Below are positions 1 through 24,912 of a stretch of DNA of 64,000 bases, in pieces. A program made the translations under genes and the position numbers. The notes under the pieces are model-generated. The model searched no databases. It saw only the letters and a program-made list of their open reading frames with translations, and was not told where the DNA came from. Source of the stretch: Christiangramia sp. OXR-203 (GTDB taxonomy: Bacteria; Bacteroidota; Bacteroidia; Flavobacteriales; Flavobacteriaceae); the NCBI RefSeq assembly GCF_034372165.1, contig NZ_CP139698.1, positions 2,666,001 through 2,730,000 of the forward strand. The letters are read 5' to 3'. Numbering within the stretch: the stretch's first letter is position 1; the number at the start of each line of letters is the position of its first letter.

Positions 1-471
1 GGAGGTTATTATCTTTATATCACTACTGCGAGCCGACTTTCCCAAATTGCGGGTAAAATGGAGGATATGACAAACGACGTAAGCAACTTCATGAACTCTA
101 ATAATATTGAAATGACTGGCAAACCTTTTATTCTCTTCAATGAAAGAAATGAAGATAGAGGAACCGCCATTTATTCAGCAGCGTACTTTACTCCAAGTGA
201 GGTGATCACTCCTCAGGATAGCCAGGTACTGAACGGTTTTATGCCTAATCAAAAAACATTGAAAACCACCCTAAAAGGTGATTATGAATATCTACAGGAA
301 GCTTGGGATGCGGCTTACCTATATATTCAGGAGAATGACCTGGCAATTATGGAAGATGCTGAGTTATTCCAGGTACATGTTACCGGACCAAGGGACAATG
401 CGAATCCAGCCGAATGGATTACTCATTTATACATTCCTCTGGGAGAAAAAGAAACAGTATTAGATGATTAA
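1..471 (+). CDS. Effector-binding (GyrI-like) domain protein, C-terminal part
   Basis: The reading frame is open from base 1, so the gene begins upstream of the window and only about 156 residues of its C-terminus are present. The visible part resembles the GyrI-like/AraC-type effector-binding fold: a segment rich in aromatic residues, a 'LKGDYEYLQEAWDAAYLYI' helix and a final 'EWITHLYIPL' strand. Bacteroidota often carry this domain behind an SRPBCC-type domain, which would lie outside the window. It overlaps crcB by 8 nt, so the two are probably co-translated. Ligand unknown. Confidence 0.6.
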   Translation, partial: GGYYLYITTASRLSQIAGKMEDMTNDVSNFMNSNNIEMTGKPFILFNERNEDRGTAIYSAAYFTPSEVITPQDSQVLNGFMPNQKTLKTTLKGDYEYLQEAWDAAYLYIQENDLAIMEDAELFQVHVTGPRDNANPAEWITHLYIPLGEKETVLDD

Positions 472-19079: not shown

Positions 19080-19108
19080 ACAAAAAAACCACGCTAATAG
19101 CGTGGTTT
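19080..19108 (-). terminator. Intrinsic terminator of the curli operon
   Basis: 10-bp stem AAACCACGCT/AGCGTGGTTT (19086-19095 with 19099-19108); on the minus strand a seven-T run follows. The 33 bases around it match the glutamine synthetase terminator at 24857-24889 with one mismatch. Confidence 0.88.
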
Positions 19109-19130: not shown

Positions 19131-20633
19131 TTATTCCCAATCGGGCATTTTAGCATTCTCGAGCAAAATCTCGCGGTCCTCTTCGAAAGTATTAAAGTTT
19201 TCATCGTACTTAACCTGGTAAATAGACTTGATTGCTTCAGCTTCACTTGAAGAATTTACAAAAACTACCGAAGCTTCGTTTGGAGCAAATCTGGGATCGA
19301 AATCATTGGTGCCATTTGGTTTTTCCTCACTAAGATTAAATGCTAAGTTTTTATCTCTGTCGTACACAAAAATTTTAGAATTCAATTGCCGAGCACCTAC
19401 AGATTGGTATCCAGAAACATCTAAACTGTAAAGAATATATCTATTATTTACCGAAATATCAATGCCGTCTAAAACTCCAGCTTCACCTTCGATAATTGTT
19501 TCTATTCTTTCACCTTGTTGATTGATTAAAAACAGGCTTCCGGAAAACCCATTAATGTCAGTCTCAAGAATAGCAATAAATTCTCCATTCTCACTTTCTC
19601 GAATATCCATTATATATCGATCTGACGGAGCTTCATAAATAATATCCTTCCCGCCACCGGAAATACCGGTTTTATATAATTTGTTGAAATTAGGAAAAAG
19701 TAAACTCTCTCCGTCATTAGCCCATGAGAAACCAATTCGGGAGAAATCTATTCCATTAACTGGAATGGAATTAGTGATTTGTTTCTTTTCTGAACCATTA
19801 TAATTCATGGTAAAGAGATGCAGTTCTCCACCTGAGTTTCCGAGATAGGCTACTTTTTCAATGGCTAGATTCTTTCTCGGCCTGAAGTTATTCTTTGATT
19901 CACTAGTTAAACTAGTATCATTTCCTTCGGTATCTGAAGAGAAAATAACATTATTCCCATCTACTTCCCTAACAAAGTAATAAGCGCTTGAAGCGCTTTC
20001 TAAAACATTGAAAGAACGTACTTCGCTAATTACAGTAGCGTTAATACTATCACTGACTTTTACCTGCCAGAAATATTTATAAGCACTATTCAAATTAGAA
20101 ACCGTAAATGTAGTATCTACTATATCAGAAAATCTTAGGATATCGTCATTCCTGTCATTGCGCAATTCCAATTGATACTTTAAGGAATCACCCTCAGGAT
20201 CTGTAGAATTCCACACGAATTCTACCGCATTAACTAGTACTGTAGCTGCATCCTCAGGGGAAAGTAATTCTGGAGTACTGGGTGCCCGGTTGTTCGCTGT
20301 AGATAGTTTTAGTTCAAAAATAACATTGACCTGACTACCTGCACGAACAATTGCTCCTTCAAAAGTGGTGACGTAACCGTCTTTCATGGCCTGAATTGAA
20401 TATTCTCCTTCCGGAATATCGTCAATAATAAATTCACCATTTTCGTCAGAAAAAACTGTTGATGAGGATGGATTGGTCGAAATTTTTACATTTTCAATGG
20501 GCTCATTAGAACCATCCATAACCACCATTCCCGTAACTTGTCCCGAACCGAAGGTTTCTATTGTCTCTTCACTACAGGAGATCAATAAACCGATAAAAGC
20601 TATTAATATAATTTTTGCAATTTTCATGCTCAT
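19131..20633 (-). CDS. Curli-operon lipoprotein with carboxypeptidase-regulatory-like, Fn3-like and beta-propeller regions
   Basis: 500 residues. Lipoprotein signal with lipobox LISC (about 17-20); a CarboxypepD_reg-like beta-sandwich (about 30-115, with GQVTGMVVMDGSNEPI and GEFIIDDIPEGEYSI); an Fn3-like domain (about 118-210, PSTPELLSPEDA, YKYFWQVKVSD); then a TolB/WD40-like beta-propeller (about 215-495) with blades such as GFSWANDGESLLF and DPRFAPNEASVVFV. It starts 5 nt after csgG, so it is part of the curli operon. A surface or periplasmic adaptor for amyloid subunits is plausible; no such role is established that I know of. A second in-frame ATG lies at 20627. Confidence 0.75.
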   Translation of the reverse strand: MSMKIAKIILIAFIGLLISCSEETIETFGSGQVTGMVVMDGSNEPIENVKISTNPSSSTVFSDENGEFIIDDIPEGEYSIQAMKDGYVTTFEGAIVRAGSQVNVIFELKLSTANNRAPSTPELLSPEDAATVLVNAVEFVWNSTDPEGDSLKYQLELRNDRNDDILRFSDIVDTTFTVSNLNSAYKYFWQVKVSDSINATVISEVRSFNVLESASSAYYFVREVDGNNVIFSSDTEGNDTSLTSESKNNFRPRKNLAIEKVAYLGNSGGELHLFTMNYNGSEKKQITNSIPVNGIDFSRIGFSWANDGESLLFPNFNKLYKTGISGGGKDIIYEAPSDRYIMDIRESENGEFIAILETDINGFSGSLFLINQQGERIETIIEGEAGVLDGIDISVNNRYILYSLDVSGYQSVGARQLNSKIFVYDRDKNLAFNLSEEKPNGTNDFDPRFAPNEASVVFVNSSSEAEAIKSIYQVKYDENFNTFEEDREILLENAKMPDWE

Positions 20634-20638
20634 TTATT

Positions 20639-22027
20639 TTAGTTTGACTTGGTAGACGGCATTGCGCCAAGATTGAAACTTACTCCTACACTGAAATTGA
20701 AATAGTGATCATCTCTATTTCCATTTATTACAAAATCAAGTTGATCGGAAAAAGTAATATTGTGTTCTGCGAAAGCCTTTAGGCTTACTTTAGGGCTTAA
20801 AAGGTATTCAAGACCTAGACCATATTGTGCCTTAAAAAAAGATGTATCGTTACCATCTGGAGCATTACTATCTATGCTAAAAAGATAACCAGCGCCAGCC
20901 TGCACGAAAGGACTTAAATCTTCATTTGGCAACACCAAAAAACCCGCATTAGCATCTACGCCCGTGTATTTCTGAGAAAAATGCGGATTATTGGATAATT
21001 CAAATGCATTTGCTCCAAGATTGATATAAAAACTATTGTTAAGATATTGAGAAAAGTCAACCTTGACCAGAGGACCTAGCTCCGGCGAGTTAAAATCGCC
21101 GCTTATTAGAGATCCGCCCAGATTAACTGTCAATGAACTGCTGTATGTTCTCTGAACCAATTTACCTCCGTAAACACTCTCCAGATCTGCTTCCTGCTTT
21201 TCCTGCCTGTAGGCTTGAATCAGCACATCCTGATCTTGTCCATCTTTAACTTTCCATAAATTATCCTCAACGCCTTCGATAATAAGGCCTTCCACTGCTT
21301 TTTCAATAGCTTCGGTTACTGCGAGCTGCACCGGTTCGTTTCTGGTTACACCAACTTCAGCCTCTAGCAGTCTTTGAAATTTTACATATTTAAATAAACT
21401 AGCATCAAGAGATTGAGACAATATCGTTTTGGAAACATATATATTCTTCAGTATTTTACCACTGGATGTCGAGATTGCGCGTAAATAAACAGTAACACGA
21501 TCCTGCCTGTATTGCGTACTTCCTCCAATTCCAAAATATCTGGCACCCATTCCCCCCGTTATAATATTAGTATCATAAGACACTATACCACCTTCAAGTA
21601 ATACACCAGCAAAAAGTAAGGGTGGTACTTGGGGTTCATTATCTTGAGCTCCCTGGTATTCCTGTCGAGTAGAACGAATAATATTTCGCTCATTTAAAAG
21701 ATTTCCTATATTTTCTCTCTCAATAGTAGTAAACCATCCCGAATTCTCGAGCGCATTGATAAGAATGGCAGTTCCTCCCTGAGTTACGGCTGTACTAAAC
21801 GTACTTCCGGACTGAGATGCTTTATACTGCCCGGTCAAATCTCGAAAATTATAAACTCCTACAACCACCTTCTCTGCAGGTTCCGGAAGCGTTTTTAGCT
21901 TCTCAGTTGTAGACGTATTCTCCCCAATTCTGGCTTCTCTAAAGTCTACGGGTTGATTGAGGTAGGTACTACAGGATAAACAGAGCAAGGAACTTAATCC
22001 TATCAGGCATAAATTTTTAATATTCAT
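20639..22027 (-). CDS. csgG: Curli secretion channel CsgG with C-terminal beta-barrel-like extension
   Basis: 462 residues against about 277 in E. coli. Residues 1-275 align strongly with CsgG: signal with Cys19, VGVYNFRDLTGQYK (57-69), STFSTAV (75-81), LLNERNIIRS (110-119), GGMGARYFGIG (158-168), FQRLLEAEVG (217-226), DVLIQAYR. CsgG is a nonameric outer-membrane channel for curlins. Residues about 292-462 are an added domain of alternating amphipathic strands ending SVGVSFNLG, like an OmpA/OMP_b-brl barrel. In the channel constriction, Phe56 is kept (Phe77) while the Asn55 and Tyr51 positions look like Thr76 and Gln72/Ser73. Follows csgF by 9 nt. Confidence 0.93.
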   Translation of the reverse strand: MNIKNLCLIGLSSLLCLSCSTYLNQPVDFREARIGENTSTTEKLKTLPEPAEKVVVGVYNFRDLTGQYKASQSGSTFSTAVTQGGTAILINALENSGWFTTIERENIGNLLNERNIIRSTRQEYQGAQDNEPQVPPLLFAGVLLEGGIVSYDTNIITGGMGARYFGIGGSTQYRQDRVTVYLRAISTSSGKILKNIYVSKTILSQSLDASLFKYVKFQRLLEAEVGVTRNEPVQLAVTEAIEKAVEGLIIEGVEDNLWKVKDGQDQDVLIQAYRQEKQEADLESVYGGKLVQRTYSSSLTVNLGGSLISGDFNSPELGPLVKVDFSQYLNNSFYINLGANAFELSNNPHFSQKYTGVDANAGFLVLPNEDLSPFVQAGAGYLFSIDSNAPDGNDTSFFKAQYGLGLEYLLSPKVSLKAFAEHNITFSDQLDFVINGNRDDHYFNFSVGVSFNLGAMPSTKSN

Positions 22028-22036
22028 GTATTTAGG

Positions 22037-22438
22037 TTAAGAATTAGGTATAGTTATTTGGGTTTGATCTCCAGTAGTGGTATCAAGAATGTCGATGACG
22101 AGCCCTCCATCAGAAGGATAAATATCTATAGCCAGATTCCCAAAAGTGTATCTTCCTTCTGTTAATTCTCCTTCACCAAATTGTGTGAAAAATAAATTTC
22201 GGCTTACCTGGCTCAAAAGCTGGCGATTTAAACTTTCGGTGAATTGATCCAGTTCAGATAAATCTTCACGTTCATCACGAGGTGCGGTAAAACTGTTTTG
22301 CGCCTGGGCCGAACTGAGCAACCATTGGTAATTAAAGGTATCTCCACCAAAAGCGGGGTTCTTGGGTGTGTATACCAGATCCTGTGCGCTCATTCCAAGG
22401 CAAGAGATTAAAATTGAAAAAAATATAAGTTTCTTCAT
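22037..22438 (-). CDS. csgF: Curli assembly factor CsgF
   Basis: 133 residues. After a signal peptide cleaved near GMSA|Q the mature N-terminus QDLVYTPKNPAFGG matches the E. coli CsgF segment that plugs into the CsgG barrel (RNPNFGG), followed by LLSSAQAQNSF (E. coli LLNSAQAQNSY) and a C-terminal DIYPSDGGLVIDILDTTTGDQT strand pair. CsgF sits at the outer face of CsgG and couples secretion to nucleation by the minor curlin. Between csgE (11 nt) and csgG (9 nt) in the operon. Confidence 0.93.
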   Translation of the reverse strand: MKKLIFFSILISCLGMSAQDLVYTPKNPAFGGDTFNYQWLLSSAQAQNSFTAPRDEREDLSELDQFTESLNRQLLSQVSRNLFFTQFGEGELTEGRYTFGNLAIDIYPSDGGLVIDILDTTTGDQTQITIPNS

Positions 22439-22449
22439 ATTTTCACTAG

Positions 22450-23187
22450 TTAGTATTGGTTAGTATATTCATTTCGATTCTCCAAATATTGAAGATACCT
22501 GGACACCTCGTTAATTGCTTTATCTGCATTCTCCCTCAAATAATCCAGTTTGGGACGCGCAAAAAATTGATAAACCACCCGGTCTTCAACTTCAACAATG
22601 AGCCTGGTAGTTCTTCCAAAACTTATAATCTCACCTACAGAAATCATGCGTTCACTTTCAAGTCCACTAAGCATGTATTGCTGATAAAAGAAATCATAAA
22701 AGTCTTTACCTGGTTTGGTTTTTGTGTTTTCGGTCACGAAACCTGTTAATTTGATTCCCTCATTGTTTTTTTGATAAGAAATCTCATCTCTGTTGGTCTC
22801 GTTTTCGTTTGATATTATCAACTTCCGGTTGGTACTAATAATATTTTCGTTATCATCTTTAAAGATTAGAAGGATGACTATTTCAGTACTGTCATTATGA
22901 CTAATAGAGGTTGAGGCTAGACTTTTTATTTCTGAAGCCTGGAGACTAAAAAAATTTGATTGTTTATTTATTGAATTGTTGTCTCCCTTTTTAATAACAG
23001 AAAGCTCATAAGATAAACTAAGAGCTGTATGGGTGAGATTCTTTGCAGATGCTGTTATAGTATAAAAATCACTTGATTTTTCCTGAATATTGATGACAGG
23101 TTCTACCTCTTTATTAAAGTTTTGAGAATAACTAGAACAGGCCGACAGAAGTAAAAGCAGAAAGGAGAATTTGGAAATCGATTCCAC
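22450..23187 (-). CDS. csgE: CsgE with N-terminal CsgC/CsgH-like beta domain
   Basis: 245 residues, about twice E. coli CsgE. Start is GTG. The signal ends in lipobox LSAC (14-17), suggesting a lipoprotein. Residues about 28-125 look like an all-beta domain with YTITASAKN, YELSVIKKG and LQASEIKSLAS, reminiscent of CsgC/CsgH amyloid inhibitors (inference, no CxC motif). Residues about 145-240 are CsgE: GFVTENTKTKPGKDFYDFF matches E. coli GLLTNHTVSSIGHDFYRAF, and VVYQFFARPKLDYLRE matches its VIFQTFLFPLKRDFE. CsgE caps CsgG and delivers curlin substrates. 7 nt after the minor curlin gene. Confidence 0.88.
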   Translation of the reverse strand: MESISKFSFLLLLLSACSSYSQNFNKEVEPVINIQEKSSDFYTITASAKNLTHTALSLSYELSVIKKGDNNSINKQSNFFSLQASEIKSLASTSISHNDSTEIVILLIFKDDNENIISTNRKLIISNENETNRDEISYQKNNEGIKLTGFVTENTKTKPGKDFYDFFYQQYMLSGLESERMISVGEIISFGRTTRLIVEVEDRVVYQFFARPKLDYLRENADKAINEVSRYLQYLENRNEYTNQY

Positions 23188-23194
23188 AGTTTAA

Positions 23195-23689
23195 TTACTT
23201 TATATTCTGAATAGTTAACATACGATCATCTCCGATAATTCTAATACTCATATTTTTACTGATGGCGTTGGCACCATTATTCTCAACATGCTGATTATTT
23301 CCCTCCTGAATAACCTCCAATTGGGTGCCAGGTTCGGAAAATATTGGAATATTTGAAAAATAATTATTGTCACCGTGTTGGCTGGCATTTAACTTATATC
23401 CTTCCACATTAACAATAGATTCTATATAATTTTCATCTCCACTTTGTAACAAACTCATTTCAATACCACTAGCATAAGACCTTGCAATAGCAGAATTATT
23501 ATTGCCAATTTGCTGAATATTGACAGCGCTTGAATTATTAATCAAATTATTCGCTGAGAAATTAGAATTTTTTATTTGTGCTATCATCTTATAAATTTCT
23601 ACATTAGGCTGAATATCCTGTGAAAAACAAGAGAAAGTTCCTAAACTTAGGAACGTTAGAATTATCAAATTTTTAGCAAGCGATTTCAT
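23195..23689 (-). CDS. Minor curlin / CsgB-like nucleator
   Basis: 164 residues with a signal peptide (about 1-24, CFSQ|D). Four or so curlin-type repeats with the QxGxxN core are visible: IQQIGNNNSAI, LLQSGDENYIES, ASQHGDNNYFSN, VIQEGNNQHVEN. Fewer and less regular repeats than the neighbouring major subunit, plus a charged C-terminus (RIIGDDRMLTIQNIK), fit a CsgB-like nucleator that stays at the cell surface. It starts 11 nt after the hairpin that separates it from the major subunit gene. Confidence 0.82.
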   Translation of the reverse strand: MKSLAKNLIILTFLSLGTFSCFSQDIQPNVEIYKMIAQIKNSNFSANNLINNSSAVNIQQIGNNNSAIARSYASGIEMSLLQSGDENYIESIVNVEGYKLNASQHGDNNYFSNIPIFSEPGTQLEVIQEGNNQHVENNGANAISKNMSIRIIGDDRMLTIQNIK

Positions 23690-23742: not shown

Positions 23743-24549
23743 TTATTCTGAATAATGTTGAAATACATTTGATGCATTCCCATTTCCACTTTGAATCACA
23801 CTACTAATATGATTTGTATCTGGAAGAAAACCTGAAGAAGATTGGGAAACAACACTAGAATTATAGTCCCCGGTTTGTAACACTTCTGATTCAAATTTCC
23901 ATCCACCATTTTGGTCAACATCAGAATAGTTACGATCCCCTTTTTGTTCAACTAAGGAAGTATGTGTAGACCCACGCTGATATACATTACTATTATTGTA
24001 ATTACCTATTTGAAGTACATCTGATTCATGATGTCCTCCTCCTTGCCAATCTACAGCATTGTTATTGTTTCCACGCTGAGTCTGGTAAGAACGAAGATTC
24101 AGACCAGATTGCTCTATAGATGCATAGTTGCTTTTACCTACTTGCAGTTGTTGAGCTTCTGAAGACCTAGTACCGTTACCTGAAGTCCACCCAGTAACGT
24201 CCTGTACAATGCTTGCAGAATTATAATCGCCTCTCTGCTCTTGAGACGCATCATTGTCTCCAGCATTTACAGTATTTGGATGTACAGTATTTTGTTGAGT
24301 TATTGCATAATTACGATCCCCTACTTGTTTTATATTTGCTGTATTTGCTTGAGCTTCTTGGTTTACTCGTGCACCGTTATAAAATCCCTTTTGATATACG
24401 GTCGAAACTAAAACAGAACCTACTTGATCAACATCAGATCCATTATTGTTTCCAATTTGATCAACATCACTGCTGTTTCCTGTTGGCCCTTGGGCAAAAG
24501 ACATTGCCCCAAACATTAGCGCTCCCGCGCAAAAAATCACTTTTTTCAT
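23743..24549 (-). CDS. csgA: Major curlin / CsgA-like amyloid subunit
   Basis: 268 residues: signal peptide cleaved near MSFAQ|G, then about ten repeats of the curlin type with QxGxxN cores (VDQIGNNNGSDVDQVG, IKQVGDRNYAITQQ, LQVGKSNYASIEQ, TQRGNNNNAVDWQ, LQIGNYNNSNVYQ, EQKGDRNYSDVDQ, LQTGDYNSSVVSQ, IQSGNGNASNVFQ). The composition is rich in N, Q, S, G and D, without Cys after the signal. It forms a stack of strand-loop-strand units in the extracellular fibre. First gene of the operon; the promoter must lie in 24550-24860. Confidence 0.9.
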   Translation of the reverse strand: MKKVIFCAGALMFGAMSFAQGPTGNSSDVDQIGNNNGSDVDQVGSVLVSTVYQKGFYNGARVNQEAQANTANIKQVGDRNYAITQQNTVHPNTVNAGDNDASQEQRGDYNSASIVQDVTGWTSGNGTRSSEAQQLQVGKSNYASIEQSGLNLRSYQTQRGNNNNAVDWQGGGHHESDVLQIGNYNNSNVYQRGSTHTSLVEQKGDRNYSDVDQNGGWKFESEVLQTGDYNSSVVSQSSSGFLPDTNHISSVIQSGNGNASNVFQHYSE

Positions 24550-24912
24550 AATTAATTAAATTTAGATTAGTATTGATTAAACAAAAAATTACACTTCCAA
24601 GATTCAGGGCATAGAATATTGGCTTAACTAATTGTCAAACAATGTTTTGGAAAACTAAAGTGTAGGGTTGTAATTGAATGCGGTAGGGTTAGTATTGCAA
24701 TCTTAATTACTTCTTCGAATATATTTAAGCTAAACAGTTATGAAAAAAAATATCGATGAATACCAGTAATAATTGTTGAAATACCATTTTCTGAAAAAAT
24801 ATTAGGTTAAAAACATGCCATTTAATAAAAATTAGGTGAAATCTCTATGATAATCTTAAACAAAAAAACCACGCTAAAAGCGTGGTTTTTCTTTTTTCTA
24901 AAACTTCAGAAA
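24550..24912. other. Promoter region of the curli operon and 3' region of glutamine synthetase
   Basis: 363 bases without a gene. The right end holds the glutamine synthetase terminator. The remaining ~310 bases upstream of the major curlin gene are AT-rich; I see no exact TAnnTTTG element here, only a near match (TAATTTTTTG on the minus strand around 24581-24590), which may mean activator-dependent expression. Confidence 0.6.
24861..24888 (-). terminator. Intrinsic terminator of glutamine synthetase
   Basis: Stem AAACCACGCT/AGCGTGGTTT (24866-24875 with 24879-24888), three-base loop, seven T on the minus strand side. Almost identical in sequence to the curli operon terminator at 19080-19108. 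Confidence 0.88.

Follow-up and report, generated by a model that had tools for sequence, protein, structure and literature searches.

The 64-kb window (the whole stretch of DNA that was analysed) contains a curli locus of six genes on the minus strand, in which the curli context of csgG is complete, i.e. csgE, csgF and a gene for a subunit with curlin repeats are all present. The fifth of these genes appears in the ORF list as one minus-strand frame of 462 aa running from 22027 down to 20639, and the plus-strand reading of the same stretch is full of stops. The features of the locus, in the order of the genes, are as follows.

24864-24890: terminator-like stem behind the gene upstream of the curli genes (stem-loop scan)
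23743..24549, minus strand: curli subunit with curlin repeats (PF07012, 7 stretches, E 2.2e-21)
23195..23689, minus strand: second curli-subunit-like protein with a weak repeat match (PF07012, E 0.061, under cut-off; NF007470, E 0.0087)
22450..23187, minus strand: fusion of CsgH (CsgC-like) and CsgE (NF041112 and PF10627; two domains in AlphaFold2; CsgC, 2xsk)
22037..22438, minus strand: csgF (PF10614, E 1.3e-41)
20639..22027, minus strand: csgG-barrel fusion gene, 462 aa (ORF; Pfam CsgG and OMP_b-brl; match to E. coli CsgG)
19131..20633, minus strand: gene with a CarboxypepD_reg domain behind csgG, putative lipoprotein (PF13620, E 5.6e-12; weaker TolB-like propeller matches, TIGR02800, E 4.8e-7, under cut-off)
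19086..19108, minus strand: terminator-like stem-loop after the last gene (stem-loop scan)

Judging from the common strand, the spacing and the terminator-like stems (7 such sites in the region versus 3.6 expected by chance, sd 2.1), the six genes probably constitute one operon. There is a single CsgG-domain match in the whole genome (3.4 Mb, one contig). The last gene, encoding the CarboxypepD_reg protein, is a candidate curli accessory gene. Of 80 named loci, 79 contain a relative of this protein at some position, and on a Spirosoma plasmid the gene directly following csgG is annotated as encoding a carboxypeptidase-regulatory-like protein. The curli operon seems to be patchily distributed within the genus; with the barrel of the window as single query, only one of the 11 further genomes of that genus gave a strong match.

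The product of the csgE gene is itself composite. Its residues 38-114 match CsgH (NF041112, E 7.1e-8, 32.4 bits, just below the cut-off of 35) and residues 147-237 match CsgE (PF10627, E 2.3e-12). AlphaFold2 predicts two domains, a seven-stranded N-terminal half and a C-terminal half corresponding to CsgE; the former resembles CsgC (2xsk, TMt 0.81) and CsgH (2n59, TMt 0.67), and unrelated enzyme beta-sandwich domains match it too. Among 31 aligned relatives, picked as looking fused, CsgH was matched in 25 and CsgE in 30 at E<=0.01, and in the 80 named loci the two were fused in 63, carried by two frames in 13, unclear in three and not found in one. Such a fusion would couple an anti-aggregation chaperone to the pore cap. 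Bacteroidetes are described as being without csgC in the part of Dueholm et al. (2012, PMC3521004) that deals with the matter, and the corresponding part of Taylor et al. (2016, PMC4838910) places CsgH subfamilies in Bacteroidetes and does not use the word fusion.

Within the csgG gene itself the following elements can be distinguished.

21971..21973, minus strand: codon of Cys19, the presumed lipidated cysteine (Cys in 34/34 aligned proteins)
21797..21826, minus strand: pore constriction loop, residues 68-77 (E. coli 48-56), by alignments one residue longer than in E. coli
21248..21889, minus strand: CsgG domain, residues 47-260 (PF03783)
21158..21247, minus strand: CsgG C-terminal helix and linker, residues 261-290 (AlphaFold2 helix 266-282; listed CsgG structures align to model residue 284 at most)
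20663..21157, minus strand: predicted eight-stranded outer-membrane barrel, residues 291-455 (AlphaFold2 strands; Foldseek and VIA matches; PF13505)
21077..21100, minus strand: predicted extracellular loop L1, residues 310-317 (GDF/GDY; length 8 in 125/125; D311 in 116/125)
20708..20752, minus strand: predicted extracellular loop L4, residues 426-440, with an acidic signature (length 15 in 124/125; D428 in 123, D431 in 120, G436 in 125 and D440 in 125 of 125)

Likeness to E. coli CsgG extends over the first ~284 of the 462 residues. Residues 37-274 align to solved E. coli CsgG (phmmer, E 2.7e-61) and residues 47-260 match Pfam CsgG (PF03783, E 4.2e-65, 219.4 bits, cut-off 20.8), which bears out the close CsgG match over residues 1-275 claimed in a preliminary description made from the sequence alone. 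All 34 aligned homologues match Pfam CsgG as well. Neither the E. coli-type CsgG equivalog NF011731 (221.2 bits, cut-off 505) nor the HfaB holdfast anchor NF037935 (35.7 bits, cut-off 300) was reached. In comparison with the type VIII secretion pore of E. coli (PDB 4uv3, 6l7a, 6l7c, 6si7), the whole CsgG part can be aligned (model 34..284 to 6l7c 14..262), and the conserved Cys, the aromatic residue at position 56 and the csgE-csgF-csgG neighbourhood are shared. The two differ in the constriction loop, in which Tyr51 and Asn55 are not kept here, and above all in length, given that E. coli CsgG ends at mature residue 262 (6l7c range) whereas here a predicted barrel of ~170 residues follows. Prediction was poor for parts of the CsgG domain, among them the pore hairpins (hairpin parts with pLDDT <50), as expected for a single-chain model. 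By its likeness to E. coli CsgG, the protein would form the nonameric 36-stranded pore.

At the N-terminus, the residue at -3 from the conserved Cys19 is Cys16, and a Cys at this position of the lipobox is atypical. Two or more acidic residues at +2 to +6 after Cys19 were found in none of the 34 aligned proteins, and any acidic residue in only one. A cluster of acidic residues after the Cys is what the pertinent part of PMC5080379 gives as the surface-export signal of lipoproteins. Since all 34 proteins are devoid of such a cluster, one would expect the lipid anchor to remain on the periplasmic face, and export of the CsgG-barrel protein as a surface lipoprotein is thought unlikely.

The residues that the preliminary description had assigned to the constriction (Phe56 kept, Asn55 replaced by Thr, Tyr51 by Gln/Ser) agree with the alignments. 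Phe56 corresponds to Phe77, Asn55 to Thr76 and Tyr51 to Ser71 or Gln72, the extra residue in the loop relative to E. coli leaving two choices. According to the relevant part of PMC6957492, Tyr51, Asn55 and Phe56 make three stacked rings in the E. coli pore; this three-ring constriction was not encountered here, the aromatic residue at 56 alone being kept. In 129 barrel-bearing CsgGs, position 51 was occupied by T (47), S (26), V (21), I (15), Q (10), A (4), K (3), L (2) or M (1), position 55 by T (84), S (36), N (6) or G (3) and position 56 by F (112), W (16) or Y (1), i.e. always by an aromatic residue. No aromatic residue was located strictly between 48 and 56 in any of them, and the loop was invariably 10 residues long. 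Among nine proteobacterial CsgGs, only the E. coli plasmid copy had Tyr51; position 56 was aromatic in eight and Leu in one, and the loop length was 9 in three. To judge from these alignments, the aromatic ring at 56 is the best-kept part of the constriction and the rest is no peculiarity of this protein. The claim of a specially altered constriction therefore had to be dropped, as Tyr51 is absent from 129/129 barrel-bearing and 8/9 proteobacterial sequences and the changes represent the norm of the group, mostly found in the nine proteobacterial CsgGs too. As for CsgF, its Asn17 is treated as the second gate of the E. coli pore in the part of PMC6957492 concerned, and the position is Phe in the protein described here. 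In 113 readable rows from Bacteroidota and Rhodothermota it was Phe in 93, Tyr in 5, Gly and Leu in 4 each, Thr in 3, Val in 2, and Pro and Ala in one each, and in 8 proteobacterial rows Leu in 5, Phe in 2 and Asn in one; 19 of 140 rows, those of the barrel-less family described below among them, had no readable motif and were left out of this count.

The C-terminal extension was modelled with AlphaFold2 as part of a single chain, using an alignment of 34 homologues. In this model it resembles an eight-stranded barrel of the outer-membrane type and not a beta-sandwich, with strands at residues 297-309, 318-328, 333-346, 350-364, 371-384, 396-409, 414-425 and 441-453 following the CsgG helix at 266-282. 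Of the 16 ten-residue blocks between 291 and 450, 13 had a mean pLDDT of 84-96 and the other three stood at 67, 78 and 79; the pTM of the model was 0.52, and the placement of the barrel relative to CsgG is not readable from it. Pfam OMP_b-brl (PF13505) was matched at residues 317-451 (E 8.4e-9, 36.3 bits, cut-off 28.7) and in 25 of the 34 aligned homologues at E<=0.01. Foldseek returned CsgG structures on top and then OmpA, NspA, Ail, OprF, OmpW and OmpX amid further CsgG chains. With VIA-align, where families missing from the list are uninformative, model residues ~291-457 matched OmpA (Z 18.5, rmsd 2.6, 160 aligned), NspA (Z 17.5), OmpW (Z 17.4) and 9nh2 (Z 19.1), and the CsgG structures listed aligned up to residue 284 at most. 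The eight strands of the extension are amphipathic and joined on one side by short turns, and over the 34 homologues the mean difference between strand faces was 2.21 versus 0.93 in shuffled sequences, none of 5000 shuffles being as high. The ~170 extra residues with alternating amphipathic strands that had been read from the sequence were thus recovered, and of the 'barrels or beta-sandwiches' proposed for them, the barrel was upheld by PF13505, AlphaFold2 and the OmpA/NspA/OmpW matches and the sandwich was not. The last strand resembled a BAM signal, for which the pattern G-x-x-hydrophobic-x-hydrophobic was used, in 107 of 125 distinct proteins, the corresponding rates being 41% for segments after shuffling and 17% for windows in the CsgG domain; because so many shuffles carry it, the pattern is weak in any one protein. 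As an indirect sign, it fits a barrel that would insert into the outer membrane.

Likeness to OmpA, NspA and OmpW is one of fold (residues ~291-455, best rows Z 17-18.5), with 11-18% identity in those rows; the barrel described here differs in being fused behind a secretion pore, and no OmpA-type peptidoglycan domain was among the Pfam matches. The best-scoring barrel row, 9nh2, is Porin III of the Legionella Dot/Icm machine, according to its title an outer-membrane barrel of a secretion machine, though a porin of that machine and not a fusion with a pore protein. PorG is another small outer-membrane barrel of Bacteroidota, with a weak sequence match (E 6e-5) and a similar SD-x-LD loop, but the barrel here scores 22.9 bits against PorG (NF052316, cut-off 130), and PorG is a separate protein, found elsewhere in this genome at 259.5 bits. 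Matches to PF13505 exist in the genome itself, listed while a paralogue of origin was being sought. A close single-paralogue origin of the barrel was not found, the best profile matches outside CsgG among the fetched loci being only ~18-23 bits, and a plasmid search with the barrel alone returned four records, all four of them CsgG/HfaB proteins.

Conservation is unevenly distributed over the extension. Outer loops are usually the variable part of small outer-membrane barrels. Here the most conserved parts are L4 (2.31 bits) and strand 8 (2.20), the value for L1 being 1.88; near-invariant residues occur in L1, L4, strand 5 and turn T2, P373 and P367 also stand out, L4 carries 4.35 acidic residues per sequence, and L3 varies in length from 3 to 15 residues. 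Which loops face outside was deduced from the usual topology of such barrels. Part of the L4 motif (SD-x-LDG) recurs in the PorG of this genome, and L4 may accordingly be conserved for structural reasons, as a trait of the barrel type that is not specific to curli. Outward-facing residues are better conserved on strands 5-8 (1.60-2.19 bits) than on strands 1-4 (1.15-1.31), which could indicate a contact with CsgG, although strand 8 may owe its conservation solely to the BAM signal.

The fusion of CsgG with a predicted barrel is real and is lineage-wide in its part of Bacteroidota. The closest named relative found was that of Joostella atrarenae, 80% identical over the CsgG domain and 67% in the best segment of the match, which points to a host of Flavobacteriaceae type. 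In the family sample, 17 of 60 genomes had a CsgG-domain match, and each of the 11 matches with E<1e-60, among them that of the window, lay in a frame of 463-523 residues. The phylum sample (395 genomes) gave a CsgF match in 50 genomes and, among the matches listed, a CsgG-domain match in 125. A strong CsgF match (E<=2e-29) was present in 41 of these genomes, own included, and the best CsgG frame was 454-552 residues long in all 41. Among the matches listed, curli-type CsgGs without a long frame were confined to one family of this sample (f18, which may be Chlorobiaceae, although this is a guess), where 10 genomes contained 11 of them, with frames of 296-344 residues, 281-294 bits against a curli-specific CsgG profile (curli-type proteins score at least 250 bits) and no barrel match; a csgF-like frame was found in the locus of each of the 11. 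The same family also holds a common, separate CsgG-domain paralogue that matches Pfam CsgG at ~E 1e-60 and yet scores 23-30 bits by the curli profile. Eight such matches (frames 244-338) were checked as possible barrel-less curli pores and set aside as paralogues on these scores, and nine matches from other families (E 1e-25 to 1e-41, frames 309-427) were likewise rejected as curli pores, with 5-26 bits and no barrel match.

With barrel profiles built from the family, all 129 curli-type CsgG frames (125 distinct) outside f18 and Proteobacteria were matched, 80 of them coming from named loci that had been ranked by similarity to the full-length query and are hence biased towards the barrel. Nine proteobacterial plasmid CsgGs had none (0/9), with a CsgF match in all nine loci. 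Plasmids of Spirosoma, Hymenobacter and Salinibacter ruber (Rhodothermota) carry the same long gene, annotated as 'CsgG/HfaB family protein'. No separate barrel frame of at least 100 residues was detected at E<=0.01 in 160 loci. In a tree of the CsgG domain (73 rows), all 59 barrel-bearing rows fell to one side of a single branch (support 99/96), which was present in every one of 200 bootstrap trees. Of the five end branches flagged as long, four were proteobacterial and one was barrel-bearing. Barrel loss was not seen among the 59 rows. A single origin of the barrel is enough to account for this, though not proved.

Our explanation for the whole, to which we give a probability of about 0.6, is that each protomer adds a BAM-type barrel beside the shared pore, anchoring it and providing an acidic rim outside. 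About nine protomers would form a shared 36-stranded pore through which unfolded curli subunits pass, as in E. coli, and each would end in an eight-stranded OmpA/OmpW-like barrel of its own, so that nine satellites would surround the pore. The barrel would chiefly serve to bring each CsgG protomer into the outer membrane via the BAM machinery, to fix it there and to hold the ring together, the conserved acidic loops L1 and L4 would make up a surface rim holding CsgF and the first curli subunits, and the interior of the barrel probably carries no cargo. Standard barrel constants lead to a rough geometry with a pore radius of 31.6 Å and satellite centres at 49 Å, spaced 34 Å apart versus the 26 Å needed (up to 11 would fit); nine barrels fit sterically round the pore, the ring placement itself being what we infer. 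In an OmpA-type barrel both ends are in the periplasm, in keeping with a short linker behind the CsgG helix. For a barrel that serves a secretion ring there is a precedent in the type IX system, whose barrel PorG is given in a table of PMC7463736 as a binding partner of the PorK/N rings. Since the f18 proteins (11/11) and the nine proteobacterial CsgGs do without a barrel, neither secretion as such nor the use of CsgF requires it. E. coli CsgG appears in the relevant listing of PMC13067283 among the oligomeric pores that assemble without BamA. A more far-reaching version, that the curli pore of Bacteroidota and Rhodothermota is a ten-barrel assembly (the 36-stranded pore and nine eight-stranded barrels, 108 membrane strands) that has switched from BAM-independent to BAM-assisted assembly and holds CsgF and the growing fibres by a ring of acidic loops, is tentative, and we put it a little short of even odds.

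The same barrel could be imagined as a surface platform first, the outer loops of which recruit CsgF, nucleator-like subunits or LPS, anchoring being a side effect in a CsgG that its lipid anchor and pore hairpins hold in any case. The top conservation of L4 and strand 8 within the extension, followed by L1, speaks for this, as do the fixed length and acidity of L4 and the fact that a strong CsgF goes together with a long CsgG frame in 41/41 genomes of the phylum sample. However, CsgF is used without any barrel in f18 (11/11 loci) and in nine proteobacterial loci, and L4 resembles PorG, so we regard this reading as unlikely, if still worth keeping in mind. Less probable again is a passive lineage relic or spacer that folds in the membrane and adds little to secretion. 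The lower conservation of strands 1-4, the variable length of L3 and the occurrence of CsgG elsewhere without a barrel would be in keeping with a relic, but the long frames persist in all 41 sampled CsgF-bearing genomes, from many families, the tree shows no loss of the barrel in the 59 rows that bear one, and L1, L4, strand 5 and turn T2 have near-invariant residues.

An artefact, either a disordered tail or a neighbouring gene joined by sequencing error, had been named in the preliminary description as what might undo its reading, and we give it practically no weight. The domain is predicted as ordered, mostly with pLDDT 84-96, and the fusion recurs across many separate assemblies: in 11/11 strong CsgGs of the family sample, own included, in 80/80 named loci by barrel profile (a set biased by the full-length query that ranked it) and on the annotated plasmids of Spirosoma, Hymenobacter and Salinibacter, with no separate barrel frame of the size sought in the 160 loci.

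In the open-licence literature on CsgG, Bacteroidota and barrel or C-terminal extensions, we found no description of a CsgG-barrel fusion. Pfam architecture lists presumably show the combination of CsgG and barrel. The domain 'Surface Ag 2', which we take to be of barrel type, may mark an earlier trace of such fusions. It is listed in the CsgG row of a table in a survey of pore families, the passages concerned offering no discussion of it (PMC4827864). Curli systems have been reported in Bacteroidetes by Dueholm et al. (2012, PMC3521004), where, in the part concerned, the size of CsgG is unaffected by differences in the size of CsgA; the main text, as far as it was covered, has no 'C-terminal', 'fusion' or 'barrel', and its lone 'extension' is an alignment setting.

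The CsgG of E. coli is the best-known curli pore and belongs to the small number of outer-membrane pores for which BamA-independent assembly is listed. It is also used in nanopore sequencing. If the curli CsgGs of Bacteroidota carry a BAM-type barrel on each protomer, the rule derived from E. coli may not hold in a phylum that is large and of ecological importance. The assembly of a nine-fold pore whose subunits must each fold a barrel of their own would then become a direct experimental question. Such proteins would offer naturally multi-anchored CsgG scaffolds, together with a natural comparison, with and without barrel, for the assembly of the pore.
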